In this document: piece after piece, positions 38,403 to 62,016 of the stretch | Layout of the letters: each line of letters opens with the position of its first letter | Numbering within the stretch: position 1 is the first letter of the stretch | NCBI GenBank assembly: GCA_918026815.1 | Contig: CAKJVC010000006.1 | Span: 1-64,000, forward strand | Direction: 5' to 3' | Length of the DNA stretch: 64,000 nt | DNA from: Chalara sp. BL73 | Taxonomy: Eukaryota > Ascomycota > Leotiomycetes > Helotiales | Notes under the pieces: generated by a model | What the model was told of the DNA's origin: nothing | What the model saw: the letters and a program-made list of their open reading frames with translations, nothing else | Databases searched by the model: none | Program-made: the position numbers and the translations under genes

Positions 38403-38412
38403 TACCCCACAT
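38403..38412 (-). promoter_or_regulatory. Putative regulator site ATGTGGGGTA
   Basis: Exact ten-base word on the minus strand, 163 bases before the CYP start and ahead of the dead SDR gene. Confidence 0.7.
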
Positions 38413-38556
38413 GGTTATCTAGAACGCTTATAAGCTAAGATCTTATGATACTTGTGAGGGAGTAACAACGGGATGTTGAATTGCATTAAAGAGCTATGAG
38501 TAAAATGGTCAAGCTTCATTACTGCATGATAGAATTGACATTGTTCTTGTTCTAAC

Positions 38557-39565
38557 TTGGTCATGACAACGCACTTATTAGATGCTCAAGAGCTATATGC
38601 GCTGCATGGTAAAACTATCCTTAGCACAGGCGCCTCCACGGGAATTGGTCGTGAAGCAGCAATAATATCACATAGTAAGATGTTAAGTATTCTTAACTCA
38701 ATCCGAGTATCTTTGAGAATCAGGAGAATGACATGTTTAATAAGTCTACACGGAGAGCTAACAGTGAGTAGGACATGGAACCAACGTCGCTTTTAGAGAT
38801 TGGAACACAGGACTTGGACAAGCACTTGCAGATGAACTCAAGGAGCGCGTTTTGTTTCGAAATGTGACGTATCAAAAGGGACTATGTTCTTGCGTTATTC
38901 CAAACGACTTGGAAGGCCTTTGGTCTAATTTATGAGGTGTTCAACAATGTTGAGACAAACAAGGAGAATTTATGATTGATACTTACTAAGAAAGGACAAG
39001 GGGGCTGAAGGCACTGTTTTTAGATTCCATCAGCACTAATTTGGTGTGCCAGGTATATCTAGTCAAGTGTGTACTACACTATCTCAGCAAATAATAGGAT
39101 GTCCGATGCCGGATAGTAGTTTCAGGTTCTGCAGCAAGATACTCCGCCTATGAATCTATATTGCGCTGCTACAGTAGGTGTTTTGGGACTCCTGCGTCCG
39201 CAACTAGAGCGTCGAAATGTCACTGTGAACATGATTGCGCGATGAACGACAGGCATATATCAGACACGTTCTATACCATTCTCGTCAATCTCTGTAAAAT
39301 TTGCCACACTGATATTGAGATGTCACCCCAATGCTAATGCCGGAGTTCCTCAAATGTGGGGTAGTCTCCCCGCAAATCAGCCCATGCTTTACTGCTGCCA
39401 AGAGTACTCCCCCAGTTTTAATAGCAAAGCTTTTTCTCGTCACTGGGGCACGAGATTGTGGACTTTGAGGACAAGCTACACGAGACGCACCCTTTTAGGG
39501 GAAAACAGCTCAACAAGGATGCGGATGTAGGTCAGAGAAAGGTTGATTCCATAGGTAGTGTGAAA
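38557..39565 (+). pseudogene. Short-chain dehydrogenase/reductase relic
   Basis: The N-terminal glycine motif is present (LHGKTILSTGASTGIGREAA, about 38602-38661; one Thr in place of the usual Ile before TGAS). A WNTGLGQALADELKERVLF block (about 38802-38858), a LYCAATVGVLGLLRPQLERR block with NVTVNM (about 39153-39230) and a C-terminal VDFEDKLHETHPF block (about 39457-39500) follow. These lie in different frames separated by stops, and the Tyr-x-x-x-Lys catalytic region is disrupted. The order of blocks matches 15-hydroxyprostaglandin-dehydrogenase-like fungal SDRs. It shares the left bidirectional promoter with the CYP, so it was probably once a cluster enzyme. Confidence 0.72.
39354..39363 (+). 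promoter_or_regulatory. ATGTGGGGTA word inside the SDR relic
   Basis: Exact ten-base match, but located within former coding sequence, so it may be chance or serve the downstream relic. Confidence 0.4.
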
Positions 39566-39740
39566 GCCAAATGCCTGGTTCTTTGTATCAAATTTCTACC
39601 AGACTTTCTCACCCTTTCACATGACACAGAGATAACCATTTGTAGGTATTCGATAAATTTCTCAGATCTCTTATTATCGTCAGTCATATTTTACTAATCC
39701 CAATAAGCGCAGCCTACTTAAGCCAGATGAACTGGATAAC

Positions 39741-39784
39741 TACCCCACATCACCCTTTCCCTCGCCCAAACTGTATGTGGGGTA
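39741..39784. promoter_or_regulatory. Inverted pair of ATGTGGGGTA sites
   Basis: TACCCCACAT at 39741-39750 and ATGTGGGGTA at 39775-39784 form a perfect inverted repeat with a 24-base spacer. It lies upstream of the dead MBL-fold gene and downstream of the dead SDR, the densest occurrence in the window. Confidence 0.65.
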
Positions 39785-40189
39785 ATCTTGGCATCAAAAA
39801 GGCATCACAAACATCTTACCAGCACTGGAAGTTGTAATGATATTTGCTTTTGCGAATACATTTATCTTGATTAAAGAGTGACTGTATTTTTGCTGCAAAT
39901 ATGGAGTTCTGGGTCTAAAGTTGGATTCTTAAGCCGCTTAAATTCGAGAAACTTATTGATCTGTAACTTCTTCAGCATTATGGTGTATATTGGGTTTGGC
40001 CTACAGGCTTTCCGCTTAGTAGAAGCCTGGAGCTGCTATTTAGGATCCTTCTTAAGTACGCCATCTTATAGGTTGCTCGAGGACATAATTTCCACCAGAC
40101 ACGTCTTAGAAATATGCCTCGGTCTCCACAATCGCTAGTAGCTTTATCGGAGATATTTTTATCACCCCCTGTGATTCAAAAGCCAAGAA

Positions 40190-41001
40190 AACTATTCCAT
40201 CTTTGGTATTTGTTATCACACATCCAGGAATCCACGTATATAATACTACATTGTTGGAGCAGCTGCGACCGATTCGATTCATGTCTGATCTAGGCATTAG
40301 GTTTCAACATAATGGCTACACAACAGAACAGCTTCATCCCGAGAACCAGCAGCCTGTCATACCAGGACCCGACTTGGTCGCAATATTATCGGAGAAGGGC
40401 ATCCAAACATTGACGGATATTGATTTCATTTGTTCTCAGCCATGTTCATTGTGGCCATCATAGAGACCCAGAACTCCTCATGGGTTCAACATTTGTTGTG
40501 GGCCTTCGCTCTACCAGGATGAAATCCTAAGTCTACTGCTTCCAAATGAGCTTGTAATTCAAAGCAGATGGGAAACGTGTGGCCTATTTCCTTTAGCTAT
40601 GGATCTGCGTAGGGACGGATCTATTTTCAAATAGATAGCCCAGGGCATTTGCAAAGTCACATCAACCTCCTTTGTTGTATTGGAACTCGAATCTGAATAT
40701 TTTTGGGTGACTCCTGCCACGATGTTCGTCTTTTTTAAGCGGGGAGAAGGCGATCGGAACTTGGGAAGATGCTCATGGAAAGACGCTTTGTATACATATA
40801 GATAAAGAGAAGGCGGCAGATACTCTCCGCAGAATAGCACTACTTTCGAGTGATGGTTATGCAAATGAACAAAAGGTAGAAGTTACCATGGCTCGTAATG
40901 TAGAATGGCACGAGAGGAACAAAAAATTAATATTCCCAGCATTGATTAGTAAATGCAGCACGCATTGGTGTGTATATAGCCACGCCTCTAGTGTAGATTA
41001 A
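40190..41001 (+). pseudogene. Metallo-beta-lactamase-fold hydrolase relic
   Basis: Recognisable in order: SLVFVITHPG and LGIRF strands, PGPDLVAILSEKGI with DIDFIC, then, after a frame change at about 40437, SHVHCGHHRDPELL, the metal motif HxHxDH with Asp changed to Gly. Further frame changes lead to a DGSIF strand and a long clean C-terminal block (SGEKAIGTWEDAHGKTLCIH, then AADTLRRIALLSSDGYANEQ) to a TAA at 40999. Frameshifts plus loss of a metal ligand make it dead. It belongs to a fungal MBL subgroup different from the intact hydrolase at 45438-46602. Its promoter carries the inverted pair of regulator sites. Confidence 0.72.
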
Positions 41002-41121: not shown

Positions 41122-41131
41122 CTACCCCACT
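41122..41131 (-). promoter_or_regulatory. Putative regulator site (AGTGGGGTA variant)
   Basis: TACCCCACT at 41123-41131, about 120 bases before the dehydrogenase start at 41252. Confidence 0.55.
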
Positions 41132-41251
41132 TTGCAAACGCCCCGTGGCTGTAATATATACATGTATTCCAGACTTCGAAATTTGTATCTGATCTGTGGA
41201 ACAATTTTTCTGGTACGCTTCCATGAGACTGCCAAAAAAGAATTTCCCAAG

Positions 41252-42284
41252 ATGTACAAAATTGGTTTTATTGGCCTCGGAGTCATGGGTTTCCCGATGG
41301 CAAAAAATCTGGTTGAAAAACTGCCGGAGACGTCGAGCTTCTGGATTTTTGACGTTTCAGTAGAGACACTACACAAATTCTCGGAGACAACAAACAAGTC
41401 TGTATATATCTGCTCAAGTTCAAAAGAAGTAGCGGAGAATTCGGTAGGATTCCAATAATTGACAATAGCTTCAAGCTATTATACGAAGAATGAAAGTTCA
41501 GCTAATGATAGTGTAGAATATTATTTTCACCATGGTTCCCGAAGGAGTACATGTCCGAAGTGTTTATCTCACTCCAGGTCTAGGGCTGCTAGCCACAGAT
41601 TTAGAATCGAGAATTTTGATCGACTGTTCTACTATCGACACTACAACATCGAATTTGGTACGGGAGCAACTCAGCACTAAATATCCATCTACCTCGTTCT
41701 ACGATGCGCCGGTTTCTGGAGGATCACTAGGAGCAGACAAAGCGACGTTGACTTTTATGCTCGGTGCTTCCTCGAGCGACCCTAATATGCCGTTACTGAA
41801 GACCCTCTTGGGCACTATGGGGACATCAACATTCGTGTGTGGTGCTCCTTCTATGGGCCTCACCGCCAAACTTTGCAACAATTACTGCTCCGGGCTCGTA
41901 GCCATCGCAACGGCAGAGGCTATGAATATTGGAATGAAAGCCGGCATAGATCCGCGTATCCTGGCGAGCATCTTCTCTACTAGTACTGCGCAGAGTACTA
42001 TTTCTGACAAGTGGAACCCTGTTCCAGGCATTTGTCCTGATGCTCCCGCAAGTCATGCTTATGAAGGAGGTTTCAAAATCCAACTGATGAAGAAGGACTT
42101 TGGCTTGGCTGTTGATACAGCAAATGCGGTCAATGCAAAGCTGTTACTGGGTCGAGCTGGTTTGCAAGCATATACAGATGCGAGCAATGACAAAAATTGC
42201 AGGGATCGAGATTCAAGAGTTGTGTTTAGATTCTTGGGAGGTGACGAAGAATGGTTGAAGAAATATTCAGATGAGAATCGCTAG
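41252..42284 (+). CDS. 3-hydroxyisobutyrate-dehydrogenase-type beta-hydroxyacid dehydrogenase (copy 1)
   Basis: Two exons (41252-41443, 41517-42284) give 319 residues. The NAD(P) motif GLGVMGFPMAKNL begins at residue 8. The substrate loop DAPVSGGSLGADKATLTFML (127-146) and the catalytic lysine K182 in GLTAKLCNNY follow the family pattern GxxGxxxKxxxN. The C-terminal DRDSRVVF helix is standard. Members oxidise or reduce short 3-hydroxy acids or semialdehydes with NAD(P). In this cluster it may reduce a semialdehyde released in ring degradation (inference). It is convergent with, and paralogous to, the gene at 42477-43577. The start was chosen at the ATG immediately before the Rossmann strand. 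Confidence 0.88.
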
Positions 42285-42476: not shown

Positions 42477-43577
42477 TTACTCCGGTCCATCAAGGAACCT
42501 CCAAATAACTGAGACATCTCTATCTATACATCTTGGATCTTTTGCGGCTTCTTTATAGACTTCTAGCGCTGCTGGTCCCATAGTCGCACGGCACCCAACC
42601 TGCTTTGCAGCTTCTACCCCTAATGTCATATCCTTGACCATCATTTGAGCCTTAAACCCACCCTTATAGTCATGACTGCTTGGTGCCGCTGGCACAACCC
42701 CAGGAACGGGGTGTACCTTGTCATTCATGAAGGACTGCCCTGTGCTGTTTTGGATAATACGATAGAGGAGGTGACTATCTACACCTAACCGAATACCAAT
42801 GTTTGCAGCTTCCGCAGCTGCAAGCAGATTCGTGCCACTAAGATAATTGTTTGCAATCTTAGCTGCAAGACCTAATCCCAATCCCCCACAGAAGAAGAGC
42901 TTCTCTGGGGAGCCCATCAAAAGAATCGTATCTCTAAGGACTTTCATCTTTGGCGTGAGTTGACCACCAGATAAGTCCGGGTAGCCGACTAAAAATGCGA
43001 GTGTCCCTGCTGCTGCTCCAGGAACACCTCCCTAGATCCAATCTTCAGTTACATTCATGTGTTTAGACTTGGGAGGGGCTTGGCTGATATCTGAGATTGA
43101 CTCACGGAAACAGGCGTGTCGACGTATGTTCCTGCACCAGCACCACTCAACTGCCCTCCTACCTCCCGAGCAGTCTCACAATCAATTGTACTACACTCTA
43201 GAATCAATCTCTCAGCATTCTCCTTGGCAGCAATGACTCCCGTTGCGGCATCGAGATATACACTTTTAACATGGCTAGCGGCAGGCACAATCGATATAAT
43301 AACACTCGCCGCGTCAGCCACTTCCCGAGCGTCTCCGACAATCTCGATACGACCTATAGAAATGCACTCGGCAGCAAATTTCTCACAAGCATCTTTGTTC
43401 ACATCCTGGATAAACAGCGTAGATTCCCTGGGAATCTTCTGCCGCACATTCTTTGCCATTTCGTATCCCATGGCGCCGAGACCTACGCAAGAATGAGAAT
43501 GTCTGGTTAGCAAAATTGCAGCTCATTGTCAACTTGATTGTCAAAGACGAACCAATAAATCCATAGCTCAAGCTCAT
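42477..43577 (-). CDS. 3-hydroxyisobutyrate-dehydrogenase-type beta-hydroxyacid dehydrogenase (copy 2)
   Basis: Three exons (43577-43553, 43482-43106, 43031-42477) give 318 residues. A 25-base first exon splits the NAD motif GFIGLGAMGYEMAKN at residues 6-20. DTPVSGGVPGAAAGTLAFLV is the substrate loop and K192 in GLAAKIANNY the catalytic lysine. It is almost the same length as copy 1 and tail-to-tail with it, consistent with an old inverted duplication followed by divergence. Its promoter is shared with the NmrA-like gene and holds one regulator site at 43796. Confidence 0.88.
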
Positions 43578-43794: not shown

Positions 43795-43804
43795 ATGTGG
43801 GGTT
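43795..43804 (+). promoter_or_regulatory. Putative regulator site in divergent promoter
   Basis: ATGTGGGGTT (one base from consensus), 219 bases before the dehydrogenase (minus) and 166 before the NmrA-like gene (plus). Confidence 0.6.
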
Positions 43805-43969: not shown

Positions 43970-44980
43970 ATGCCTCCCTTTAGCGAGCGATCACTCACGG
44001 TGGGCGTAATTGGCCCAGCAGGATTCGGTGGCTCTTACCTGTGTCTCGAGCTCATCAATAGGGGTTATTCTATTATTGGAATCTCACGGCATCCGGAGAA
44101 GTTGGGTTCACATCCTTGTTATACACCGCGCGTGGGCAATGTGGCAGATATGAGCATCGAATCTCTTGCCCAGATCTTCAGCGGCCTAGATGTTCTAGTG
44201 AACGAGTATGGACCTCATTCAGCAGGTGTTGATGCTTTGATTTACAGTATGCTTTTCCGGCTACACCTGGCAGGAATACCTCTTAACATGATTTGGCTGA
44301 CTCATTCATTGTGTGCAGTGCCTTTCCTTGAAGTCACTCGGAAAATCATTCTCGCGAGCAAGCTTGCGAAAGTGAATTATTTCGTTATGGTTGGCGGCTG
44401 CTGCAGTCTTTACATGCCTGGGGGAGCTCACAATTCCGTTCTGGAGAACAAAGATTGGTGGGTCGCTTATAGACGCGGTATCGCCGATAGCGAAGCCCAT
44501 ACAGTTTATATGGAGGAGAGGCTTGGTCCCATGGGAGATAAGCTTCGTAGCTATCGCAATGCACGGATGGCAAAAGCGAAAGGTATAGCTACACAGGCAG
44601 ATGCTGAAGTTATCGAAGACTATGAATTGCAGACTCGCAACAACGATCGTGCCCTAGAATTCGTCACAGCATGTAGAACAAGCTATATGTTCTTCGATGG
44701 TAACACATCCTTCCGCTGGACATATGTCTCCCCGAGCGCCCTCTATAGACCAGGAAAAAGAACTGGCGCATATAATATCCAGTTTGACTATCTTGCATTA
44801 AAAGGAGATTCTGAAGATCCTACCAACCTAGATGGCCGACTACATGGAATCTCTGCGGCCGACTTAGCTGTGGCAATCGCTGATGAAATAGAATCTCAAG
44901 AGAAGGCTGGAAGGCATTGGACTGCGTATGGAGATTTGTCAGATGATACACCCACTGCAAGTTACGTGACCTTAAGTTAG
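43970..44980 (+). CDS. NmrA-like NAD(P)-binding oxidoreductase
   Basis: Two exons (43970-44246, 44319-44980) give 312 residues. The 72-base intron has no stop and is a multiple of three, so an unspliced frame of 336 codons also exists. The intron is preferred because it has a GTATGC..TGCAG structure with a CTTAAC branch, and removal joins DALIYMPFLEVTRKII as in relatives. The Rossmann motif is GVIGPAGFGGSYL (12-24); VNYFVMVGGCCSLY is the fourth strand region, and the C-terminus ends HWTAYGDLSDDTP. It is an extended-SDR/NmrA-type reductase or redox sensor without an obvious YxxxK pair. The substrate is unknown; co-clustering suggests it acts on an aromatic or ring-cleavage intermediate. Confidence 0.82.
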   Translation: MPPFSERSLTVGVIGPAGFGGSYLCLELINRGYSIIGISRHPEKLGSHPCYTPRVGNVADMSIESLAQIFSGLDVLVNEYGPHSAGVDALIYSMLFRLHLAGIPLNMIWLTHSLCAVPFLEVTRKIILASKLAKVNYFVMVGGCCSLYMPGGAHNSVLENKDWWVAYRRGIADSEAHTVYMEERLGPMGDKLRSYRNARMAKAKGIATQADAEVIEDYELQTRNNDRALEFVTACRTSYMFFDGNTSFRWTYVSPSALYRPGKRTGAYNIQFDYLALKGDSEDPTNLDGRLHGISAADLAVAIADEIESQEKAGRHWTAYGDLSDDTPTASYVTLS

Positions 44981-45437: not shown

Positions 45438-46602
45438 CTATATGACCTTTTCTTCACGAACACTCGACTTTGCAGTTTCTTTCATATTTTCGTCAAGCAT
45501 GCCCATTAATACACTGTCCGTACCGTTCAAGATCCACTGTGCATCATGCGCCAGTGCAACGTGACATCCTAGTTGGGATTCCATGATGCGAATGCGAGCC
45601 ATGGTGTCTTTTGCGGCAGGAATATCAGTATGCAAGGATGTTGTGGAGCCATCAGGAAGCATCCAGACCGCAATCTTGTGCTCCCCATCAAGGAGGGACC
45701 TTTGTATTAAATAATTGTTAGCGGCAAGCGCAAAAGAACATGCAATAAGTTTTGGCGAACCTAGAATGACAGCAGTCACTGCCCAAAAGTATCCACTGGT
45801 CTCGTGCTTGACGAACAAGAGCGCAAAGATTCCCCGGCATATGTCCTGGTGCTTGCATAATCCAGAAGGAACCTGTTCCAAAGAAATCAACAGCTTTCTC
45901 AAAAGCACCCAACTTGACCCATGGACCATTTAATTCTTCAAAGGGGTCTGTCGCTTGATCGGGATCAAAAAAGCGGCCATCCCACTGCACATTATCTGGA
46001 TCATGAAAATGGCCAGGAGAACAGAAGTCTTTTGTCCCTGGTCCAAAAAGAATTTGGGCTTGAGGGAACGAGCTCTTAAGAGGTCGGCAGTGATCCCAAT
46101 GAGCGTGGCTGTATTGCAGGTGGGAATGATTAGTAGTTGATTATTGCAGTAGAGAGGCATATTTTAGGATTCGTCTTTTCTACCTGAATATCACCGTATC
46201 AATCTGCTCACTCGATACCTCCCGACGAGCCAACTGTTCCACAAGCAAAGTGCGAGGACCTACCGCTTGCACACTTGCCATGGACTTTTGAACCCACGGC
46301 GGGTAATCTTCAGGATTCTGTTCGCATTGTTTATATCAGATTCTCGGGTTCAAGCCACTGCTACTGTTGGTGGTATAGTTAACTTGTTTACGTACCGAGC
46401 TCATACCTGCATCCCATAATATGTGGCGATCGGTTTTTATGTCATGAACATGAAACGCCCAATTGTACATTCGGAATGTCTCATCATCACTAGCACTAGC
46501 ATGCAGGTATGTCGCGAGGGCTATAAAGGAGCCACCATCTAAACAGTTGACCTTTGCGAAAGAACCCTCGATAGGCAATGAGCTCCACGATATCCCGCCC
46601 AT
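45438..46602 (-). CDS. Metallo-beta-lactamase-fold hydrolase (lactonase-like)
   Basis: Four exons (46602-46396, 46317-46184, 46108-45761, 45699-45438) give 316 residues. The zinc motif SHAHWDH is at residues 114-120 (HxHxDH intact) and is split by an intron. Later ligands are the His of QAPGHMPGNL and the Asp of LGSDCCHSR, and the final His is probably in HDAQW. The order matches AhlB/AttM-type lactonases and related hydrolases that open lactone rings in the cytosol. In the cluster it may open a lactone formed after ring cleavage (inference). It is divergent from the dioxygenase gene, with two regulator words between them. No damage seen. Confidence 0.87.
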
Positions 46603-46832: not shown

Positions 46833-46842
46833 ATGTGGGGAA
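46833..46842 (+). promoter_or_regulatory. Putative regulator site (ATGTGGGGAA variant)
   Basis: One base from the core word; lies 232 bases upstream of the MBL hydrolase. Confidence 0.5.
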
Positions 46843-47059: not shown

Positions 47060-47069
47060 TACCCCACAT
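47060..47069 (-). promoter_or_regulatory. Putative regulator site ATGTGGGGTA
   Basis: Exact word as TACCCCACAT, about 160 bases before the dioxygenase start codon. Confidence 0.7.
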
Positions 47070-47227: not shown

Positions 47228-49212
47228 ATGGCTTCACCGGACTACCAGAACATTTTCCACTGGGCAGAAACACAAAAGGATGGCGCTATTCAATCATTTA
47301 GCTTGAGAAAGGACGATCCGTACAAGGTATATTTATGTGCCCTTCATGCCGACACAAATCGGAAGCATTAACTTCAGGTTTTAGTACCAAGCAGGTTTTA
47401 ACAACAAGTATGTGGAATGTATATGCTGCTGCGCTTTCACTACTTTGATCCTTTGCTTACCATAACGATGCAGTTTCGAGTCTGAGGCCATACCAGGAAC
47501 ACTGCCACAGGGGCAAAATAACCCGAGATGCGTCCGCTTCGGACTTTATACGGAGCAAATGACAGCATCTGCTTTTGTAGCACCCCGACATTCCAACAAA
47601 AAAGCTTGGCTATATAGAATTCGCCCTGCTGTTGCGCACCAAGGATTTGTGCGTTATTTACTCGCTTATAGATAATATTGCAGACATCCTGACCATGACT
47701 TTTAGACAGATTTACCAGACAATAAAGATACAGAGAGCAGCTTCTTATTAGGGAACCCACGAGTTCAGTAAGCATAATTTTACAATTATCTGCACACTAA
47801 GCCCAAAACCACCCCCGCTCAATACTTTCTAGATAGCCGGGCTATTGATTGCTGTCGCTCAAAGAACTTAGAAGCCCTCGGCGCAGAGTGACGCAGTAGT
47901 TTAGCTTTCCTCGAGGCGTTTTGACATATTAATCACCCTAATCTGACTGCAATATTCTAGTGTCTCTCCAACACAGCTCGCCTGGCTGCCTTTTGATATT
48001 CCAGGAGATCAAGAGAAGATAGATTTTATCGGCGGACTTAAGACGCTAGCTGGATCTGGAGATCCGACACTTCGTGAGGGAATCGCAACCCATATCTATA
48101 CAGCAAATACGAGCATGAACCAGAAAGCATTCGTGAACTCAGACGGGGATTATTGTATCATTCCTCAGCAAGGAATCTTGGATATCCAGACCGAGTTCGG
48201 CCCTCTGTATGTACAACCTGGAGAGATTGCCGTCATTCAGAGGGGCCAGCGTTTTCGTGTGGCACTACCTAGCGGCGCATCGCGTGGCTATATCCTAGAA
48301 ATTTGGGGTGCGAATTTCGAGCTTCCAGAGCTAGGTCCTTTAGGTGCAAACGGTCTTGCAAATGCCAGAGATTTTTTGCATCCGACAGCCCACTATGAAG
48401 TGAAGAACGAACCCTGGGAGATTGTGTATAAGCTTGGAGGCAAGTTCTTCCAGAGCACACAAAACCACTCACCATTTGATGTGGTTGCTTGGCATGGGAA
48501 TTATGTAAGTGGTCTATATATTGCTCTGGTAAATTAACGCGTACTGGGACGTTCAATGAATGATAGAAAAAATCACCTAATTGGCCATGAAAATTCTCAT
48601 GACGCTCACTAGAACCACGGAACTCCGCCGAACTACTTGCAACAAAACTGGGCTAATGACGTGTCTTAGGTGCCTTACAAATATGATCTGACAAAATTCG
48701 TCAACGTAGGATCAATATCTGTTGATCATATCGACCCTTCCATTTTTTGCGTTCTGACTGCAAAATCCCGAGACCCTACAGCTCCTTTGGCGGATGTATT
48801 AATATTTTCGCCTCGTTGGGATGTCGCCTCTCATACATATCGACCACCTTACTACCATCGAAATGTTGCCTCCGAGCTGATGGGCCTTATCTATGGCGAG
48901 TACGCAGGTCGTTCTGACGAGTTCCAACCTGGGGGTGTGTCCTACGAATGCGGGATGGTACCTCATGGGGTCGCATATGAAGAATTTCAGGCCGCATCAG
49001 CAGCCGCTCCTCCAGAGATGCAGATCTCTAAAGGTGCTATTGCATTTATGTTTGAATCATCACGGCCATTTACCATCACAGACTGGGCGTGGAATAGTAC
49101 TAAGAAGCATGAGCATGATCCTAAGATGTGGGATAATCTCGTGGATAATTTTTCCAAACATGCTGAGGAAGTGAAAGATATTCTAGGAAACATGGGCACT
49201 GGAAGAGCGTGA
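47228..49212 (+). CDS. Homogentisate 1,2-dioxygenase-family ring-cleavage dioxygenase
   Basis: Six exons (47228-47326, 47385-47407, 47474-47648, 47706-47767, 47961-48504, 48670-49212) give 481 residues in phase. The family body is clear: YQAGFNN, GLYTEQMTASAF, WLYRIRPAVAH, a cupin core with FGPLYVQPGEIAVIQRG and RGYILEIWG, and YKYDLTKFVNVG with the conserved active-site His321. Iron ligands are H364 and E370 (YHRNVASELMG) and H400 (MVPHG). The loop before the last ligand reads GGVSYECGM instead of the GGGSLHS-type sequence I know from true homogentisate dioxygenases. The substrate may therefore be another para-diol, such as hydroquinone or gentisate. The next gene, maleylacetate reductase, supports this. 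The 193-base intron 4 is unusually long for the locus. Confidence 0.9.
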
Positions 49213-49907: not shown

Positions 49908-49944
49908 TGTGGGGTCAAAATGTTTGAAAATCTGTGGTGGGGTA
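49908..49944 (+). promoter_or_regulatory. Two direct GTGGGG sites
   Basis: TGTGGGGTC (49908-49916) and GGTGGGGTA (49936-49944) in the same direction, 28 bases apart, 204-240 bases before maleylacetate reductase. Confidence 0.6.
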
Positions 49945-50147: not shown

Positions 50148-51312
50148 ATGGATTCTTTTGAATACAATACCGCCCCCACGCGTGTAGTCTTCGGTCAACG
50201 GACTCTTGATAGACTCCCAGATGAGGTTGCACGATTGAAAGTGAATGCACCACTGCTTTTATCAACCCCAGAGCAAGTTTCTCACGCCATAAAGCTCCAA
50301 CGAATACTCGGCGGCAAGGTGGCTGGCATCTTCAGTGAAGCATCAATGCACACGCCTATAAGCATCAGCACAAAAGCACTGGAATATGCAAACCTAAAGG
50401 GTGCTGACGGACTTATCTCTATTGGTGGTGGAAGCACGATTGGTTTAGGTAAAGCGATATCTATTAGGACGGGACTGCCGCATATTTGCATTCCTACAAC
50501 GTATGCAGGGTCAGAAATGACGCCAATTCTCGGGGAGACACTGGACGGAAAGAAGACGACTCGTAATGACCCCAAAATCTTGCCTGGAACCGTTATCTAT
50601 GATATTGATCTGACTTTAACACTGCCTGCCGGTATGAGCGCCACAAGTGGAGTTAATGCCATCGCACATGCAGGTAAATAAAATTCTTACTAGTCTTTCG
50701 GCTATCTCCTTATATCTTTCATGAAGCACTCCTGAAGAAGACTAATTCGCGCACAATTCTATAGTTGAGGCGCTGTATGCACGCAACGGTAATCCAATTA
50801 TCTCCTTATTTGCAGTTGAAGGCATCAAGTCTCTGGCGGCATCACTACCTCTTATCGCCACTTCGCCCACTGACATTTCTGCACGGAAGTCCGCTCTATA
50901 TGGCGCTTGGCTTTGTGGAACATGTCTTGGCTCGGTCGGAATGTCGTTACACCACAAGTTATGCCATACACTAGGCGGATCATTCAATATGCCACACGCA
51001 GAAGTACATACTATTATTCTACCTCATGTTCTTGCATATAATGCGCCTAATATTCCTGGTGTCTTGGAGAAACTGGCAAAGGTGCTCCCTCCCAACGACG
51101 GAGGCGCCATCAAAGGGCTGAATATGCTGCTAGAGAGCTTGAATGTTAGAAGGGCGTTGAAGGACTTTGGATTCAAGGAGGAGAGTATAGCAGAAGCGGC
51201 AAAGCTCGCTCTAGCAAATCCGTATTGGAATCCCAGAGCTCTTGAGTTAGACTTGATTACAGAACTTCTTCGAAGAGCATGGGCAGGGGAAGATGCAAGG
51301 GCAGACTTATAG
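50148..51312 (+). CDS. Maleylacetate reductase (iron-alcohol-dehydrogenase family)
   Basis: Two exons (50148-50673, 50765-51312) give 357 residues, the usual length. The N-terminus FEYNTAPTRVVFGQRTLDRL is typical. The nucleotide motif GGGSTIGLGKAIS follows at about 94-106, then PTTYAGSEMTPI. The metal region is DIDLTLTLPAGMSATSGVNA followed by IAHAVEA, and HHKLCHTLGGSFNMPHAEVH carries the two C-terminal histidines. It reduces maleylacetate to 3-oxoadipate with NAD(P)H, the last step before the 3-oxoadipate pathway in resorcinol, hydroxyquinol and hydroquinone degradation. Directly following the dioxygenase, it defines the fate of the ring-cleavage product. Two regulator words precede it. Confidence 0.92.
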
Positions 51313-52401: not shown

Positions 52402-53688
52402 TTAGAGCGTCCTCAAGCGAATGCCCATTTTCAGAAAAAAATGTTCGGAAAACGCAGAATAAGCCTCGCTCTTGAGGCCTGTCTTTGAGACGGAGACCCT
52501 GACTGAAGTATTATGTTATTATTTCTTATGAAGTTAGTGAAATAAATCTTACCTTTACACGTAGGAAGAAGAGCCTTATCACCTCCCAAACCCTAACGTG
52601 TTTTGCCATTCAATCTATTGCCAGTCTCTAGTATTTTAAAGTAATATTGAGTTCTGATCAATTACCGAAGCCTAAGATATTTAGCCGGCACATGAGGATA
52701 TTGCCAACAGCGTCGCAGAAGCATGACGAGATTTGGAGCCATTACTTGAGACCCTACGATTTGAGGGCCGAAAGCTGACAACTTAAAAGCCCCCTGTTTC
52801 TTCAGCTTCTTAGTTCAAAGTTAGCTCATACATGGTGGCGACAAGCTCACAGGTTTGAGTTACTATTAATTCATAGTACTACCAGAAGTAGGGCTTAGGT
52901 AGGAATGCTAGCTTTCAGCTGAGGTACTCTTATAGTAGTATTTAGACATCGAAACTTGTTCCGCTCTACGAGACTAACCATGTTATCGGCGTTCCTGGAT
53001 ATGCAGTAAATAACCAACAGCAACTTTGATTCTAGGGGCAACTGGGTCTACACATGGCCATTCTGCGTCCGCTCAATCTTCCGAGGGAGGTAGAAAGGAC
53101 ACTACAGACACTAACTCACCTAAAGCTGGTACAGTCAAGCTCAGAATTAGTCTACTGTTTCATCGATTTGGATTTTTCAAATTGCGTGGGCATTTTAGCA
53201 TACTTGAGTTCCTCGATAACGAAAGATAGAAATGCTATTGTGAGATAACTTAAGACCAGTGTGAGTGGGGTTTAATGTTGGGTGATGCAGAATAGAGATG
53301 AGATAGGATTCTTTAGTGCACTGGTAGGACGTAGTACAACGATTCAATAAGTTATCGAAAAGAAGTAAGAGTGTTACCAGCTCAACGAAATATTGTTGTT
53401 CTAGAAGGATACAAGATAAAGCGGTGGGGCTAGGGCAGGCACAGATTGCTTATTCACCAAATTACCCCTCTTCAGAAACATGCCTATCTCTGTTCCTTTA
53501 TCTAGCTGGTTCCCTCCAGGCCGGGGTGAGATCCAGATTTCAGAGTAACCTCACAAATCTACAACATAAAACAATATGTAGGTTGATACATAGCAGCACG
53601 GAGCCATTCTCATTCTTAGCTAACAGCCTACTAAGTCACTTTCAAATCTACCAATTTTATAAAGCTCGCATCCTACATATACAATACC
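52402..53688. other. Gene-less spacer
   Basis: No gene seen. A GGTGGGGCT word (53423-53431), carrying the GTGGGG core, lies 258 bases before the next start. Confidence 0.45.
53423..53431 (+). promoter_or_regulatory. Weak GTGGGG core site
   Basis: Only the six-base core matches (GGTGGGGCT). It is the sole candidate upstream of the decarboxylase-like gene. Confidence 0.35.
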
Positions 53689-54138
53689 ATGGCTTCTTCT
53701 TCTTCAACTACCTCCTCCCAGCATAAGATTCAAGAAGCACATCAAACTATATTTGAGGAAGGTATCAGGATCCGATATGAGGTGGCAGGCAAGGAGTATG
53801 TAGACATGGCTCTTGCAAACGGCTCCTCAGCTTTTGCCCGTCCAATGCAGGAGTTGGTAACAGAAGCATGCTGGGGTTCCGTCTGGACGCGTCCCGGCCT
53901 GGAAAAGAAGACGCGGTCAATGCTCAACATTGCCATGCTGTGCGCTTTGAACCGTGGGCCGGAACTGGCTGTTCATATACGTGGCGCCCTAAACAATGGA
54001 GCTACAGAGATCGAGATCCGGGAGGTGCTGCTCCAGGTTGCGATATATTGTGGCATGCCGGCCGGGCTGGAAGGTTTTAAAATTGCTGAAAGGACTATTC
54101 TGGAGGTGAAGAAGGTGCTGGAGAAACACGGTGAATAA
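53689..54138 (+). CDS. Carboxymuconolactone-decarboxylase-like protein
   Basis: Single exon of 149 residues. All-helical CMD/AhpD fold: helix with GKEYVDMAL, then ELVTEACWGSVWTRPGLEKK, SMLNIAMLCALNRGPELAVH and IREVLLQVAIYCGMPAG. The spacing matches gamma-carboxymuconolactone decarboxylase, with the ELAVHIRGALNNG segment bearing the conserved His. It lacks the AhpD CxxC redox pair. In the 3-oxoadipate pathway the true enzyme decarboxylates 4-carboxymuconolactone; fungal cluster members often carry out other decarboxylations or cyclisations. With the neighbouring alpha/beta hydrolase it mimics the bacterial PcaC/PcaD pairing. Confidence 0.87.
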   Translation: MASSSSTTSSQHKIQEAHQTIFEEGIRIRYEVAGKEYVDMALANGSSAFARPMQELVTEACWGSVWTRPGLEKKTRSMLNIAMLCALNRGPELAVHIRGALNNGATEIEIREVLLQVAIYCGMPAGLEGFKIAERTILEVKKVLEKHGE

Positions 54139-54327: not shown

Positions 54328-54337
54328 TACCCCACAT
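54328..54337 (-). promoter_or_regulatory. Putative regulator site ATGTGGGGTA
   Basis: Exact word as TACCCCACAT, 195 bases before the hydrolase start. Confidence 0.7.
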
Positions 54338-54531: not shown

Positions 54532-55386
54532 ATGGCTACATCAACAAGCAGAATAATTACTCACCCTAATGGCCAGACGACGCATATATTCGATGACGAC
54601 TTTGTAGACCCGTGGATCGAACACGAAACTATCGTAATTCAGCATGGCTTTGCTCGCCACGGAGCTTTTTGGTACCACTGGGTCCCAATTCTCGCTCAAA
54701 AATATAGGGTTATCCGTCGGGATGCTCGAGGCCACGGGCAGTCTAGCTATCCTGAACCAGGAGATGGTTATGAGTACTCCGTCAATACTATCATCGACGA
54801 GATTACAGATACTCTAGATCAACTTGGGTTGTCCAAAGTCCATTTTCTAGGCGAGAGCACCAGCGGAATAATTGGAGAGATATTGGCCGCAAAACATCCA
54901 CAGCGTCTCCACAGCTTGATTATCTGCTCAAGTCCAACATATCTACCGGAAGAAGCACTTTCACTCTTTTCATTTGGGTTTCCTAGTTGGCCAGCAGCTT
55001 GTCGCCAGCTCGGCTCTCGAGGCTGGGGACAGGCACTTTCCAAGGTCACTGGCACAGTCTCTGTGCCAGATCCTAGGTATATTGATTGGTGGATCCAACA
55101 AGTCGGTATATCGACAGGAGAGGGTCTCGCAGGTTACGCCCAATTCCTTTCAACGCTAGATTCACGCCGATACCTGCAACAGATCAGGATCCCTATGCTC
55201 ATCTTAGCTCCTGCGAGGAGTGCGGCAACCAAGCTGGAGGAGCAGAAGTGGATTCAAGCCCAGATACCCACTGCGAAGCTGGTAGTTATTGATGCGACCG
55301 GCCATGAGATATATGTAGAGAAGCCGCAAGACTGTCAAAAGGCAGTCATAGAATTTATATCGCAACTCGGGGATACCATAAAATGA
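54532..55386 (+). CDS. Alpha/beta hydrolase (3-oxoadipate-enol-lactonase-like)
   Basis: Single exon of 284 residues. Oxyanion strand IVIQHGFARHG (34-44), RRDARGHGQSSYP (62-74), nucleophile elbow GESTSG with Ser109, and catalytic His258 in DATGHEIY. The elbow is GxSxS rather than GxSxG, which is less common. It is similar in layout to enol-lactone hydrolases and C-C bond hydrolases of aromatic pathways. The start was set at the ATG at 54532 because the ATG four codons upstream gives no extra fold. It follows the CMD-like gene in the same direction. A lactone or ester from the ring-cleavage branch is the likely substrate (inference). Confidence 0.85.
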   Translation: MATSTSRIITHPNGQTTHIFDDDFVDPWIEHETIVIQHGFARHGAFWYHWVPILAQKYRVIRRDARGHGQSSYPEPGDGYEYSVNTIIDEITDTLDQLGLSKVHFLGESTSGIIGEILAAKHPQRLHSLIICSSPTYLPEEALSLFSFGFPSWPAACRQLGSRGWGQALSKVTGTVSVPDPRYIDWWIQQVGISTGEGLAGYAQFLSTLDSRRYLQQIRIPMLILAPARSAATKLEEQKWIQAQIPTAKLVVIDATGHEIYVEKPQDCQKAVIEFISQLGDTIK

Positions 55387-55686: not shown

Positions 55687-55783
55687 TACCCCACTAGTTG
55701 GCTTTTGTAATACTAAGCTGTGGGAGTCTGTGCTTTTTTGCGCCTGCTTTCGTCGGAGTGGCAGTTGAACCACCTACCCCACA
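55687..55783 (-). promoter_or_regulatory. Two regulator sites before CYP copy 2
   Basis: TACCCCACT (55687-55695) and TACCCCACA (55775-55783), same orientation, 221 and 133 bases before the chosen start codon. Confidence 0.65.
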
Positions 55784-55915
55784 AAACAGAAACTCGCTCA
55801 ATCACTTTTTGTTTCTATGAAGGCAGGCTACGACTTAGACATTAAATTTCCGTCTTCATCAGACAAGACTCAAATGACATTCAATTGTTTTCGTGTTCTT
55901 AATTATACGCTTCTT

Positions 55916-57644
55916 ATGGCTGAGCTTACCTCTTACTTGGTCCTGGCAGGTGTCGGGCTACTGTTTGCAATTTGGGCCTCGGGCAAGCAGGCGAAATCTA
56001 TTCCGAAAGCCCTACGACATGTACCTGGTCCGAAGGGTTTACCCCTAGTCGGAAATACACTGTCCTTGAGTTCACAGCCGCAATCGCTGTTTCGCAAATG
56101 GGCATTAGAGTATGGCGAGCTTTTCAAGGTACAGATGGGATGGGATACTTGGATCTTCGTTAATAGCCCTGCTGCTGTGAAAGAACTTTTCGACAAGCAG
56201 TCATCCGTCACTTCTGGGCGCCCAAGAATGCCTGTTGCCTCCGATCTTGTTTCTGGAGGCATGAGATTTCTGCTGATGGACTACACCCAAGAATGGAGGA
56301 AACTTAGGACGGTGGTTCATAAACTCCTCACCCCGAAGATGTCAAATACGTTCCAGCCCTCTCAGCAATTTGAGGCTCTACAGCTTATGCATGATCTATT
56401 GGAAGACAATAAGGACGAGGAAAGCTTTTACAACCATTTTAGAAGATATTCTGCTAGTGTAGTCATGACTTCAACTTACGGAAGACGCATTCCATCATGG
56501 GTAGGTTGCGCAGCTCAGATATGTATGGATAAAATTAACCTAAATAGAAAAGCGAAGATATAACAGAGATCTATACAGTGATGGCTGAATTTTCAGAAGC
56601 GGCGGCACCAGGAGCATTTATTGCGGACCTTATCCCACCACTGGCCCAACTTCCTGTCTGGATGCAATGGTGGCGAAAACGAGCACTCCGTTATCAACAC
56701 AGACAGAATAACCTATGGATGAAGTACTGGAATACTCTAATGCAGCAAGTTCAGAACGGGAAAGCACCCGAGTGTTTCGTTAAGCAATTTTCTGAGACCA
56801 ACTATAAGGGCCAAGGAATCACAGATTTACAAGCAGCGTACGTTGCAGGAAGTAAGGAAACCTGTCCTTGAACAAAACGTCCTGCTAATGTTGGATGAAA
56901 GCAATGATTGAAGCAGGGTCTGAAACCACTTCTTCTGCGCTGAATAGTATCGTCAAGTTTCTTGCAGCAGCCCCAGACGTGCAGAAGCGTGCCCAGGAAG
57001 AGCTCCTAAAAGTCGTAGGAGAGGATCGAAGTCCTCTTTTTGACGATGAAGAGAACCTCCCTTACATCAGAGCTATGGGCAAAGAGATCTTAAGGATTCG
57101 GCCTGTTACTAATATTGGTACGCCTCATCGCACAACTGCGGATCTCGTTTACAAGGACATGTTTATCCCTAAAGGAACGATTATATCTATATGCCAGTAT
57201 GCATTACACTTTGACCCGGAACAGCACGAGAATCCTGATGAGTTCAACCCAAGTCGATATCTCAATCATCACCTAAAGGCTGGTGCTTATGCTGCTCATG
57301 CCGACCCGTATGAAAGAGATCATTTCAGCTTTGGAGCCGGACGAAGAATTTGCCCAGGAATGCATCTTGCCGAGAATAGTCTCTTTATCGTACTTGCGAA
57401 GTTGCTGTGGGCTTTCAATATTTGTCCTCCTCTAGCGGATGATGGCACTGAAATGAGTATGGATCTGTCGGATAATAGCTTGGAGCCAGGTGCGAATACG
57501 CTTAGCAAACCTTACCGTGTGCGCTTCCTCCCAAGAAGTGAAAGCGCTGCTGAGATTGTTCGAAAAGAATGGGTGAATGCGCAGAATGAAGGATTCTTTC
57601 TTGGATCTGTGAAAGTCAACAATGCAGGAATGGTTGTGAACTAA
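55916..57644 (+). CDS. Cytochrome P450, microsomal (copy 2)
   Basis: Three exons (55916-56504, 56567-56851, 56902-57644) give 538 residues. The ATG at 55916 puts the anchor helix (TSYLVLAGVGLLFAIW) at the N-terminus; an in-frame ATG at 55817 would add 33 residues. Motifs: VPGPKGLPLVGN hinge, RRYSASVVM, I-helix AGSETTS, ExxR E353-R356 (KEILR) and haem loop FSFGAGRRICPGMH with Cys442. Intron 1 uses a donor three codons past the obvious one, which keeps the EIYTVM helix in frame. It is a paralogue of the CYP at 36528-38240. Two successive CYP steps on one small aromatic (ring or methyl hydroxylation) would fit the cluster, but this is inference. Confidence 0.88.
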
Positions 57645-57886: not shown

Positions 57887-57896
57887 ATGTGGGGTA
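57887..57896 (+). promoter_or_regulatory. Putative regulator site ATGTGGGGTA
   Basis: Exact word, 271 bases before the FAD monooxygenase start. Confidence 0.7.
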
Positions 57897-58166: not shown

Positions 58167-59599
58167 ATGCCGTCTATGTCGCCGCCAAAGGTATGTAACT
58201 ACCCGAATCAATCAGCTTTCCGTATTCTGAAAAAGAAAAACGCAGGTAATTGTAGTCGGTGCCGGCCCTGCAGGCCTGCTATTGTCTTTGCTTTTAGCAA
58301 AACAGGGCATTGCAGTAGAAATACTGGAAGCGACAGAAAGGCTCGATGAACAACCGCGTGCTACCCATTATTCTTCTCCAGCGGTTGCCGAGCTTCGTCG
58401 TGCTGGAGTCCTAGAAGATATTATTGCAGAAGGCTTTTTGCCTGAAGGTGTATCATGGCGAACATTAGACGGTACCTTCCTTGCTGGTATAGATGCGAGC
58501 GCTTTGCCGTCAGACTACCCGGACAAGATGGTTTGTCTCCCACTGAATAAGCTTGGGGAAATTCTCGGCAAGCATCTTTCCAAGCAGCCCACGGCAAAAA
58601 TTAGCTTTGGGCATAAGGTCGTAAAACTTCACCAAACCGACGACAGAGCTTCCGTGGAAGTACAGACAAATTCTGGGATTATCTCATTGGAGGCTGATTT
58701 TATTGTTGGTTGTGACGGGGCCAATAGCCAGATTCGTAGATCTCTTTTTGGAGATTGGGAGTTTCCGGGGAAAACATGGGATAAGCAGATCGTAGCTACA
58801 AATGTAGGACATGGCCAACAAAAAGGACGTTTAAGTTTAAGCTAAATTCGCAATTAGGTCTACTACGACGTCAAAAAATACGGCTGGAGCGACTCAAACT
58901 TCATCATAGATCCAGATCATTGGTTCATGGCTGCTCGTATATCTAATGACGGCCTCTGGCGAGTTACCTATGGCGAATCCCCCGGATTGACCCGTGAAGA
59001 GTACCTCGAGCGATTGCCAGAGAAGTTCAAGATAATACTGCCTGGCCATCCTGAACCGTCAGATTATCGCCTGGCAAACTTCAGCCCATACAAAGTACAT
59101 CAGCGTTGCGCAGAAAAGTTCCGGGTTGGTAGATTTCTCCTTGCGGCAGATGCAGCTCATCTATGCAATCCTTTGTAAGTAGCTTGCTCTAACCAGTTTC
59201 GGTCGCCATTAACAGGCCGTTTAGTGGAGGATTGGGTCTAACAAGTGGTATTGTAGATGTGGGTGGACTATCCGACTGTTTGATAGGAATCTTCTGCGGC
59301 AAGACAACGCTAGAGATCCTGGACAGATATGATACCGTCCGACGACAAAAATACAATGAATTTGTAAATCCAATCTCAAGCCAAAACTTTGAGAGACTCT
59401 GGGGCCAGAACCCCAGCAAGGCATTGGAAAATGACAAATTCCTCCAAATATGTGTCTCGGCGGCGAGCAACAAGGAACTATCTCTTGAGCTGCAGCTAGT
59501 ATGTTTTGAATCTCTCTTTCCCGCTTAAGCAATTGATATTAACAAATGCTATAGGCTGCAAATGCGTTGAAGTATGATTTTACACAACACTATGTTTGA
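58167..59599 (+). CDS. FAD-dependent aromatic monooxygenase
   Basis: Five exons (58167-58190, 58246-58803, 58858-59174, 59216-59498, 59555-59599) give 408 residues. FAD motif VIVVGAGPAGLLLSLLLAKQ begins at residue 9. The second motif GCDGANS is at 163-169, the third is LLAADAAHLCNP followed by GGLGLTSGIVDVGGL. It belongs to the single-component flavin hydroxylases (UbiH/PheA/MhpA group) that insert one oxygen into phenols using NAD(P)H, sometimes with loss of a carboxyl group. At 408 residues it is short: the C-terminal thioredoxin-like domain of phenol hydroxylases is absent. It is the natural candidate for producing the para-diol that the dioxygenase cleaves (inference). The 24-base first exon is easily missed. 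Confidence 0.88.
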
Positions 59600-60130
59600 T
59601 TTCATTCGGTAGAGTTGATAAGAATTCGTTTACATGAAATGAATCGAAGCAGAAATTCCGTGTATAGTGTCTAAAAACAACTCGGTAAGTGCTTCGTGAC
59701 TAGAATTGTATGCTGTGACAGTACGTTTATACATGCGTCCAATTCAATATTATCTGCTTGTACCCTGTATCTTGTAGACTGTATAGACTTCAAGCTCTTA
59801 AGTTCCCAGTAGGATACTAGAGTACTGAAAATAACATATTCAAAATTAAACTTGGCAGGCAAAGCAAGGAGTTGGCTTCTCCCACCAAACCGAGAAATAT
59901 ATACACCAAATATCCGAACAGGCATTAAAGTAAGTACGGATAAAATAAGTGCTTTTATTTGGAGGAATTGTGGTATATATTGGAAGTAATAACTAGCGTC
60001 CACAAATTATAAAGGTCTTTCACCATGCCCAGTCATAACAACGAAATTGAACCTCCCGAGGCTAACAAGCTTTGTGTAGTATCCGTGAGTTATTGATTGT
60101 GTCGCCTCAAAACCTGAGATCAGCTTAACG
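59600..60130. other. Spacer between convergent genes
   Basis: No gene supported. A short plus-strand start (ATG at 60025, about 20 codons followed by a possible GTGAGT donor) has no continuation that I can find. Confidence 0.45.
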
Positions 60131-61713
60131 TTAGCTTCTATTAAAACCCCGAAACCCCTGGAAGAGGTTCTGCGGGTCCCATTTGCTGCGGATAGACATC
60201 CATTTCTTGAATGCGGAGTCGGTCATAACCTGCTTGCATCAGCATCGCTAGTAGGCTTATTATGTCTCACTACACGAAAATAAGATGGCTGTATGAACAA
60301 GTGACTCACTTTTGTTACCGGCAACGTAGAGTTGAAATCTGCAACGTACACTCCACATGCAGCTGGTGCCGCAGTGGAATATACATTCTCCAGCCACTGT
60401 TGCACTTTGCTGTCATGCTCATTTCCATTCCAGCACACCATACTAGCAACGTAGAACTGCTGTGGTAGGCTGGAGCAAAGTCGGTTTTCATCCGGAATTG
60501 TCTCTGCAAAGTATACACATCCGATAGACCGACGCGTAGGCAGGTCGCAGAGAGCCGGCTTAAGAGAGCTGATTAACTGTTGCAACAATGATCAGAGACA
60601 GACACGAGACAAGTTGAAATTTAAAGTAATGGCCCTGAATTATATATTTACCTTCGATCGAGGAGTCGCCGGATCAGTTAAGATACTGCCTACCTGCCAC
60701 CTCTCATTGTTAAACAGCGGCGTGAATTCATCTTGTTCTTTGAAAATCTTCGCCCAAGAAGTTGGCATAGCTGTTTCTGAGAAGACTTTGCTGTTTTCAA
60801 GGGACTTTGGAATAAACTGCCAAGGTTTCAGCCATTCGGTAGCTGCTTCTTGGGTATCTGTGTACGCAGTTAGAGCTACGGCTGCCATTAAAGCGCTGGC
60901 TTCGGTTAATTCATCGGTGTATACTCCTGGTATATTTTTGTCGGCATAAAAAGTGCACAGTGCCCCATCCACAAACTCCTTTTGTGTGTTTTCTAATGAA
61001 GCCAGGGCCCACTCTACGATCCTTTCGAATTGATCACCGCACTTGAACACAATTGTCGTCTGGAAGAGGCTTCGTCCTGGAATTGTGCGGCACCAAAATT
61101 TCGTTACGACACCAAAGAAACCCTGTCCAGCGCCTCGCGCCGACCAGAACAAATCCTGGTTTTGCGTTTCACTTGCGATAAGGGTATCTCCCGAGGCAGT
61201 GACAATCTCAATTTGTGTGATCCAAGTATCAGATGTTAAGCCCCAACCACGCATGAACCAGCCCTGCCCCCCTGCAAGCAGAAAGCCGCCAACTGCAACA
61301 GTTGGGGAGTGCCCATGAGGGAAAAAGCGGCCAACGGAGACCATCTTCGCGGACACCTCAGAGCCGTTTACTGACGGTCCGAAAGATACAAGTTTCGTTT
61401 CGGGGTCAAAGTCGACGGCATGGTTGAGATACCGAGTGTCAATCAATAAGCCACCCTCAATGAGCGATGAGCAAGTCCACTGATGACCCCCTGAGCGAAC
61501 GCCAACTTTCCAGTTCTGAGCCGCCGCATGCTTCAATGCTGCGCTTACTCCCTGAGTGTTGATAGGAGTTGCTATCTCGGCTGGCTTTATGTCGGGAACC
61601 CTATCGTTATAAAATGCTCGACGAAGAGCCTCGTACGTCTCGGTACCTTCATGATGTGTTGCGCTGGACAAAGGTGTCTGAGCAGGTATACCATGGTTGT
61701 TCTGCGCCAACAT
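60131..61713 (-). CDS. FAD-linked oxidase, berberine-bridge-enzyme-like
   Basis: Three exons (61713-60652, 60576-60310, 60229-60131) give 475 residues. The PCMH/FAD_binding_4 domain is at the N-terminus, with VGVRSGGHQW holding His77, the site of 8-alpha-histidyl FAD. Then come SPTVAVGGFLLAGGQGWFMR and GLTSDTWITQIEIV. The second, cysteinyl attachment residue of bicovalent members is absent. The BBE C-terminal motif is KWDPQNLF in exon 3. There is no clear signal peptide, unlike many secreted relatives. It oxidises alcohols, amines or ring carbons using O2. It is divergent from the MFS gene across a promoter holding two or three regulator words. Confidence 0.88.
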
Positions 61714-61924
61714 GACTAACTAGTTCGTTGAAGAAGTGCCTCAAAACTCCTTTTGGTAGAAAGGTACTAAGAGAACTTTAAGACATACTTGTGACCTGTA
61801 AACCCAAGGGTCCTATAAGCATCAAAACTGACAATAGCTTCTCGGCCCATGTAGCAAGAATGTTTGGTAAGACTTTTGATGTAATGGGGGGGAATTTACA
61901 TGTAGCAAGCATGGGTGAATCTTC

Positions 61925-61933
61925 TGTGGGGTA
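61925..61933 (+). promoter_or_regulatory. Putative regulator site TGTGGGGTA
   Basis: Exact nine-base word, 212 bases upstream of the BBE-like oxidase. Confidence 0.65.
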
Positions 61934-62007
61934 AACTTGAGAATTAAGGTTATAGGGGTAAAGGGCCTCCCGCTCCCCCAAAAACAAAACAAAAAAAAAA
62001 ATATTTG

Positions 62008-62016
62008 GACCCCACA
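62008..62016 (-). promoter_or_regulatory. Putative regulator site (TGTGGGGTC variant)
   Basis: GACCCCACA, 305 bases before the MFS start. Same TC variant as at 49908. Confidence 0.5.

Follow-up and report, generated by a model that had tools for sequence, protein, structure and literature searches.

Gene content of the cluster

The DNA analysed, a window of 64,000 nucleotides from the fungus Chalara sp. BL73, covers the first 64 kb of contig C3, with a (CCCTAA)n telomere repeat at its outer end (positions 1-126). Its inner part carries a cluster of genes from the first P450 gene (P450-A) to the gene of an MFS transporter, and a ten-base word, ATGTGGGGTA, is repeated among them. A gene for a C2H2 zinc-finger protein adjoins the cluster. 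The occurrence of the shared word before nearly all genes, together with the neighbouring zinc-finger gene, makes joint activation of the cluster probable. The present text deals with the genes, the word, the candidate regulator and a related stretch on another contig, C82.

The cluster begins with P450-A (36531..38240, minus strand; PF00067, 1.5e-45; start read by eye). It is followed by an SDR-like gene, possibly decayed (38563..39200, plus strand, end approximate), with a 36% match to C82 and without Pfam matches in its first exon, and by MBL-1, an apparently decayed gene of the metallo-beta-lactamase fold (40101..40944, plus), whose matches of 44-54% are distributed over three frames with stops. 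Two 3-hydroxyisobutyrate-dehydrogenase-like genes come next, HIBADH-1 (41252..42284, plus; PF14833 and PF03446) and HIBADH-2 (42477..43522, minus; PF03446; start approximate), as well as the genes of an NAD(P)H-binding protein (43970..44980, plus; PF13460) and of MBL-2 (45438..46602, minus), which has a 32% match to the C82 MBL protein and no clear Pfam match.

Further inward lie HGO, a homogentisate-1,2-dioxygenase-like gene (47472..49212, plus, from the first recognisable codon; PF20510, 2.3e-75, and PF04209, 1.8e-48), and MAR, a maleylacetate reductase gene (50148..51312, plus), whose product matches the solved enzymes of that name 3w5s (1.1e-108) and 3hl0 (5.5e-108). They are accompanied by CMD, a carboxymuconolactone-decarboxylase-like gene (53689..54138, plus; PF02627, 8e-22; PcaC model 3.5e-40, just below its cut-off), and by ABH, encoding an alpha/beta hydrolase similar to enol-lactonases (54532..55386, plus; PF00561, 1.8e-26; PcaD models below cut-off). 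A second P450 gene, P450-B (55817..57644, plus; PF00067), and a gene for a FAD monooxygenase (58167..59525, plus, end approximate; PF01494, 1.1e-29), with PnpA and HspB as the nearest solved relatives, are also present. Finally, a berberine-bridge-like FAD-linked oxidase (60226..61713, minus; PF01565, 7.2e-21) and the MFS transporter (62321..63773, plus, end approximate; PF07690, 4.4e-11) are encoded at the inner end.

A homogentisate-type dioxygenase, a maleylacetate reductase, CMD, ABH, a hydroxylase and an MFS transporter are therefore grouped, which is the composition of an aromatic-catabolism cluster. The enzyme set fits the degradation of an aromatic compound, the putative substrate, whose ring, of the homogentisate or hydroquinone type, would be opened by the homogentisate-type dioxygenase and then processed via maleylacetate toward 3-oxoadipate.

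The ten-base word and its placement

The exact word ATGTGGGGTA, counted on either strand, occurs seven times in the window, always within 38.4-57.9 kb, when 100 dinucleotide shuffles gave a mean of 0.04 copies and one at the most. Allowing up to one mismatch, 15 copies are found, compared with a shuffle mean of 2.66. In the whole genome (58.66 Mb in 199 contigs) there are 100 exact copies, against 63 of the reversed word; seven of the 100 fall in 19.5 kb of the cluster and the other 93, of which a minority were examined in place, lie elsewhere. The nine-mer TGTGGGGTA has 342 copies, against 314 for its reverse, and is thus ordinary genome-wide. On the basis of these genome totals of ten-mers and nine-mers, the spans which hold seven ten-mers and nine nine-mers would be expected to contain 0.03 and 0.13 copies, respectively.

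The core of the word was also recovered without choosing it beforehand, by ranking every word of 6 to 10 letters in 36-62.4 kb by comparison with a further 176 kb from the same genome, part of which had been chosen for holding ATGTGGGGTA, a bias that runs against the finding. GTGGGGT/ACCCCAC ranked first among the 7-mers (17 copies vs 18 in the 176 kb, P ~1e-8), the top 8-mers were GTGGGGTA and TGTGGGGT, and GGGGTA and GTGGGG were first and third among the 6-mers. TGTGGGGTA was third among the 9-mers, after two words with four copies each and none in the background, and the ten-mer ATGTGGGGTA was outside the top eight of its ranking, partly because background stretches had been picked for holding it. 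Furthermore, 17 copies of GTGGGGT were seen in 36-62.4 kb when 2.2 were expected from 106 kb not chosen for the word (36 kb at the outer end of the window, 20 kb directly beyond its inner end and 50 kb in the vicinity of other finger genes), and five rearrangements of its seven letters have 2-4 copies each. Other words, possible candidates for a second cluster-wide motif, ranked in the same comparison, among them CTATGGAT, GTCATGACT, CCAAAGTCC and TCTCGGG; AGATAA (GATA-like) and CTCGGG words show a mild enrichment in 36-62 kb.

The element is a core GTGGGG with a softer (A)T before it and TA after it. No single change at the six core positions of TGTGGGGTA has more than one copy in the cluster, and up to two copies are found for changes in the outer positions (the first one and the last two). 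A weight matrix was made from 17 cluster sites, with a score of at least 12 as the threshold for a match. It yielded 18 matches in 36-62.4 kb vs 1.0 expected (from four in the 106 kb), a number with some circularity, since the same sites went into the matrix, while the GTGGGGT count is free of it. Seventeen of the 18 are intergenic, in a stretch with an intergenic share of 37%. Moreover, all 11 promoter intervals of the cluster (drawn by the analyst, as were gene bounds and starts) hold at least one matrix site, with 16 sites in 5.1 kb where 0.19 were expected. The first 36 kb of the window have one match and the next 20 kb inward (64-84 kb) none. The sites are found in both orientations, one or two per gene front and mostly 120-420 bp upstream, pairs having no fixed spacing. 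According to these results, the word behaves as a cis element of the whole cluster, its high density being confined to the stretch between P450-A and the MFS gene.

Starting from the telomeric side, an exact word (38403..38412, minus) stands 163 bp from P450-A and 151 bp from the SDR-like gene. Another (39354..39363, plus) precedes an apparently decayed gene, and two more (39741..39750, minus, and 39775..39784, plus) are upstream of the MBL-1 relic, the latter belonging to the 17 of 18 bases common to the C82 MBL promoter (see below). The variant AAGTGGGGTA (41123..41132, minus) is 120 bp from HIBADH-1, ATGTGGGGTT (43795..43804, plus) lies between HIBADH-2 and the PF13460 gene, and ATGTGGGGAA (46833..46842, plus) is 231 bp from MBL-2. 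An exact word (47060..47069, minus) separates MBL-2 (458 bp) from HGO (about 400 bp to the first recognisable codon at 47472). MAR is preceded by GTGTGGGGTC (49907..49916, plus) and TGGTGGGGTA (49935..49944, plus), at 232 and 204 bp, CMD by the weak variant GAGTGGGGTT (53263..53272, plus) at 417 bp and ABH by an exact word (54328..54337, minus) at 195 bp. In front of P450-B are the variant TAGTGGGGTA (55687..55696, minus), at 121 bp, and a nine-base copy, TTGTGGGGTA (55775..55784, minus), 33 bp from the first possible start. The last exact word (57887..57896, plus) is 271 bp from the FAD monooxygenase gene, and both a nine-base copy, CTGTGGGGTA (61924..61933, plus), and a further GTGTGGGGTC (62008..62017, minus) lie between the FAD-linked oxidase and MFS genes. 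Weaker copies are TTGTGGGGTT (36704..36713, minus), which is inside P450-A and is the only genic matrix match, ATGTGGGATA at 49126 and, outside the cluster, ATGTGCGGTA at 2066.

The seven exact words, the nine-base copies (55775 and 61925) and the variants (41123, 43795, 46833, 49908, 49936, 55687 and 62008) listed in a preliminary description of the window are all present where it placed them; the weaker copies at 49126 and 53263 were omitted from its list. It had noticed a single near match outside 38-62 kb, at 26591, which exists, and had missed those at 36704 and 2066. Its statement that nearly all copies lie 120-310 bases upstream of a start is mostly correct, the departures being 55775 (33 bp), 47060 (458 and about 400 bp), 53263 (417 bp) and the three words at the decayed gene (39354, 39741 and 39775). 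The notion of a cluster-wide promoter word stands as regards density and intergenic placement. The claims that it is enriched only in this cluster and marks a self-contained regulon are too strong, in view of the 93 exact copies elsewhere and of a second site-dense stretch on C82.

Outside the cluster, the window includes a 915-aa frame for a cation-transporting P-type ATPase (7600-10347; PF00122 and PF00689), and its first 4 kb have a GC content of 32%, vs 43-48% elsewhere.

Candidate regulator and decayed sister cluster

No regulator was named in the preliminary description. A candidate is the gene at 32357..35406 (minus strand), directly outward of P450-A, which is open through seven exons (six GT-AG introns of 46-87 bases) and encodes a protein of 893 aa with two C2H2 fingers and a Fungal_trans domain (7.8e-9, above the Pfam cut-off). 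The finger-coding part (35077..35307, minus) is split by two introns. The Fungal_trans domain, like the many introns of the genes, is a mark of fungal DNA. The fingers have canonical spacing (CX2CX12HX3H and CX2CX12HX4H), and positions -1, 3 and 6 of their helices are occupied by R,H,R (RSEHCVR) and by R,L,R (RKDLVTR). According to the standard zinc-finger code, such residues would direct the first finger to the 3' GGG and the second to the 5' G-T-G, and the two helices together should read GTG-GGG, the invariant core of the word. In the mechanism proposed from these residues, a monomer would read 5'-GTGGGG-3', with the N-terminal finger (RSEHCVR) on the 3' GGG and the second one (RKDLVTR) on the 5' GTG, and the flanking AT and TA would add affinity.

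Among solved structures, the fingers match that of Adr1 (2adr, 1.3e-15), behind many vertebrate multi-finger proteins. A Zn2Cys6 regulator within the window was rejected, the pattern being absent from its six frames, although intron-split domains could escape such a search. Other finger pairs of the genome are presumably CreA-like (contig C185), Msn2-like (C179) and ADR1-like (C127). The closest paralogue of the regulator (51%) is on C7 (2170860-2171140), its first finger helix, RREHCSR, having the same contact residues and no second finger being visible, and an ABH paralogue (56%; sampled at 2174100-2174650) is found about 2.5 kb from it.

The stretch on C82 was chosen from the list of 100 exact words, looking for stretches with words close together or near a finger gene; of all exact words beyond the cluster, its two (C82:399621 and 404200) are the nearest to each other. 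Homologues of six cluster genes were found in it: HGO (60-75% by piece, with two in-frame TAG codons in one match), ABH (43-60% by piece, with frames changed), HIBADH (in three frames), MBL (44%, with an open frame), P450 (33%) and, more weakly, SDR (36%). When E-values are calculated for the scale of the genome, SDR is the only one of the six that does not reach 1e-6. In contrast with C82, none of 12 other stretches holds a cluster homologue at 1e-6; these were word-bearing stretches of C20, C136, C96, C83, C55 and C1, finger-gene stretches of C83, C79, C127 and C179, 20 kb of C3 directly inward of the window and the window's own first 32 kb. The word-bearing groups of C96, C83, C136, C20 and C55 have 1-3 matrix matches of at least 12 each. 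The word loci of C96 and C83, and the two of C136, show repeated match patterns that resemble segmental duplications of about 12-13 kb. Judging from the homologues, the C82 stretch is a decayed paralogue of the cluster.

Eight matrix matches are present in the 32 kb of C82:388001-420000, where 1.2 were expected (P = 0.0015 without the two selecting words, uncorrected for the handful of stretches examined). A site lies 126 bp upstream of the MBL start, three lie 216-296 bp upstream of the SDR start, and ABH has two, at distances of about 250 and 500 bp from its first recognisable codon; upstream sites for three of the six homologues have a P of ~1e-4 at the background rate. When the MBL promoters of the cluster and of C82 were compared, the best local alignment (ACTGTATGTGGGGTAATC / ACTGTATGTGGGGTATTC, 17 of 18 bases) fell at the word, and the alignment of the ABH promoters was no better than chance. 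Another site, at 411697, lies between two divergent carboxylesterase-like frames (PF00135). It is proposed, tentatively, that the regulator and the ten-base word may form a movable unit which also drives the decayed sister cluster (C82:397-417 kb), in which sites would outlast genes and the open MBL gene would still be under subtelomeric control. As a natural experiment, the sister cluster bears on the order in which regulatory sites and coding frames disappear.

Proposed regulation, rival explanations and known systems

The reading that we favour, and consider rather probable, draws on what was shown by computation: the sites, how densely and where they lie, an uninterrupted regulator gene, the set of enzymes and the sites before three C82 homologues. 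In this reading, the ADR1-like C2H2-Fungal_trans protein of 893 aa would be a pathway-specific regulator belonging to the cluster itself, would bind the word and would switch P450-A to MFS together: an aromatic substrate or product would be sensed, and the regulator would turn these genes on jointly. Both a site in the promoters of clustered genes and a regulator gene beside the cluster, as in a regulon, were found, and this reading is strengthened by the plausible regulator and by the paralogous cluster.

Several results weigh against it. The finger models of the regulator score below the Pfam cut-offs, and no site is present in the promoter of the regulator gene itself. Of the seven exact words, three (39354, 39741 and 39775) stand before an apparently decayed gene, MBL-1. 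On C82, no site was found up to 1.8 kb upstream of the first recognisable codon of HGO, HIBADH and P450, and the alignment of the MBL promoters has a score of 31, equal to the best of 100 shuffles, so that it is informative by its place and not by its length. Similarly, the 551 bases sampled as the presumed promoter of the C7 ABH paralogue contain no site, and a MAR paralogue on C118 has one marginal site only. Finally, the contact residues of the regulator recur in the fingers (RLEHLKR and RRDLLLR) of the ADR1-like protein of C127.

This last point, and the 93 exact words outside the cluster, would be explained if the cis element were read by an unlinked general regulator of the ADR1 type (e.g. 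that at C127:467 kb), the cluster being one target of a carbon-source circuit. Such an arrangement is rather unlikely: in the genome at large the nine-mer is about as frequent as its reverse, and yet the cluster is packed with it, and an open C2H2 regulator gene adjoins the cluster. A different carbon control, repression by CreA, is considered very improbable. CreA recognises SYGGRG, a consensus which GTGGGG fits, and a finger pair that we take to be CreA-like is encoded on C185. However, among the forms counted against background only GTGGGG is enriched (21 vs 7.5 expected) and the others are not (GCGGGG, 5 vs 6.5; CTGGGG, 16 vs 12.0), counts by which the CreA reading was rejected; the flanking AT and TA are foreign to the consensus, and fingers of the CreA type (RSDELTR on C185) would favour GCGGGG.

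The words might also have been copied with their promoters during gene duplication and be inherited and non-functional, as the paralogue pairs of the cluster (two P450, two HIBADH and two MBL genes) and the paralogous cluster on C82 could suggest. This is hardly to be expected, since the sites precede unrelated gene families, their flanks differ, and in the promoter comparisons with C82 the MBL pair aligned at the word alone and the ABH pair no better than by chance. A dispersed repeat was likewise rejected because the flanks are unalike. It is extremely improbable, finally, that the word marks a chromosome end or a stress element (STRE) unrelated to the cluster, an idea invited by the telomere at which the window opens and by the GGGG within the word. 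The flanking subtelomeric DNA has one matrix match in 36 kb, with none at 64-84 kb, and the second dense stretch (C82:399-414 kb) is internal, about 0.4 Mb inside a contig of 2.07 Mb, so that the chromosome-end feature was dismissed. The STRE (Msn2/4) reading was rejected by the word counts, AGGGG/CCCCT not being enriched (CCCCT, 28 vs 31 expected; AGGGGT, 8 vs 7).

Regulation by the adjoining C2H2 gene gives a testable pair, consisting of a zinc-finger protein with readable helices and a ten-base site across the promoters of a catabolic cluster. If it is true, further target genes could be found by the site, and an inducible promoter with a defined operator would be available. In the literature on the site with Adr1, fungal clusters, C2H2 regulators and aromatic clusters, represented mainly by titles and abstract openings, no description of ATGTGGGGTA was recognised.

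Like Adr1 of Saccharomyces cerevisiae, the candidate has an adjacent C2H2 pair, whose contact residues here are R,H,R and R,L,R. A matrix reported for ADR1, ACCCCAC, would be equal to the core described here. In the excerpt of PMC3429914, ADR1 and accccac share one table row, which does not equate them. The UAS1 site of Adr1 has a G-rich half site, AAGTTGGAG, with the same layout as the word (excerpt of PMC6769490). Unlike in Adr1, which acts on unlinked glucose-repressed genes (excerpt of PMC2527678), the regulator gene lies beside its presumed targets, Fungal_trans is present, there is no fixed palindrome and the core is GTGGGG and not TTGGAG. Since the TTGGRG of an ADR1-type site is missing, the core being GTGGGG and its single changes not enriched, the regulator would work like Adr1 and is not classed as Adr1. 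GipA, of the gliotoxin cluster of Aspergillus fumigatus, also has two C2H2 fingers and, within a single cluster, putative sites in almost every intergenic region, but its consensus is TNNVMGCCNC, its fingers are at the other gene end, the cluster is biosynthetic and it cooperates with GliZ (excerpt of PMC4006717).

The gentisate and hydroxyquinol clusters of Scedosporium have, in the part of PMC8283699 consulted, a dioxygenase, a maleylacetate reductase, a P450, a monooxygenase or an MFS transporter grouped, with a regulator in some of them. In comparison, the present cluster has a dioxygenase of the homogentisate type and, in addition, CMD, enol-lactonase-like, HIBADH-like, MBL and FAD-linked oxidase genes. 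For the gentisate cluster, that paper reports a Zn(II)2Cys6 regulator, whereas the candidate described here is C2H2; if the proposal is true, a C2H2-Fungal_trans regulator would govern an aromatic-catabolism cluster. Fungal clusters in which a pathway-specific regulator acts through a shared site are a known kind of system, and the points of interest in this one are the zinc-finger class and the decayed sister cluster.

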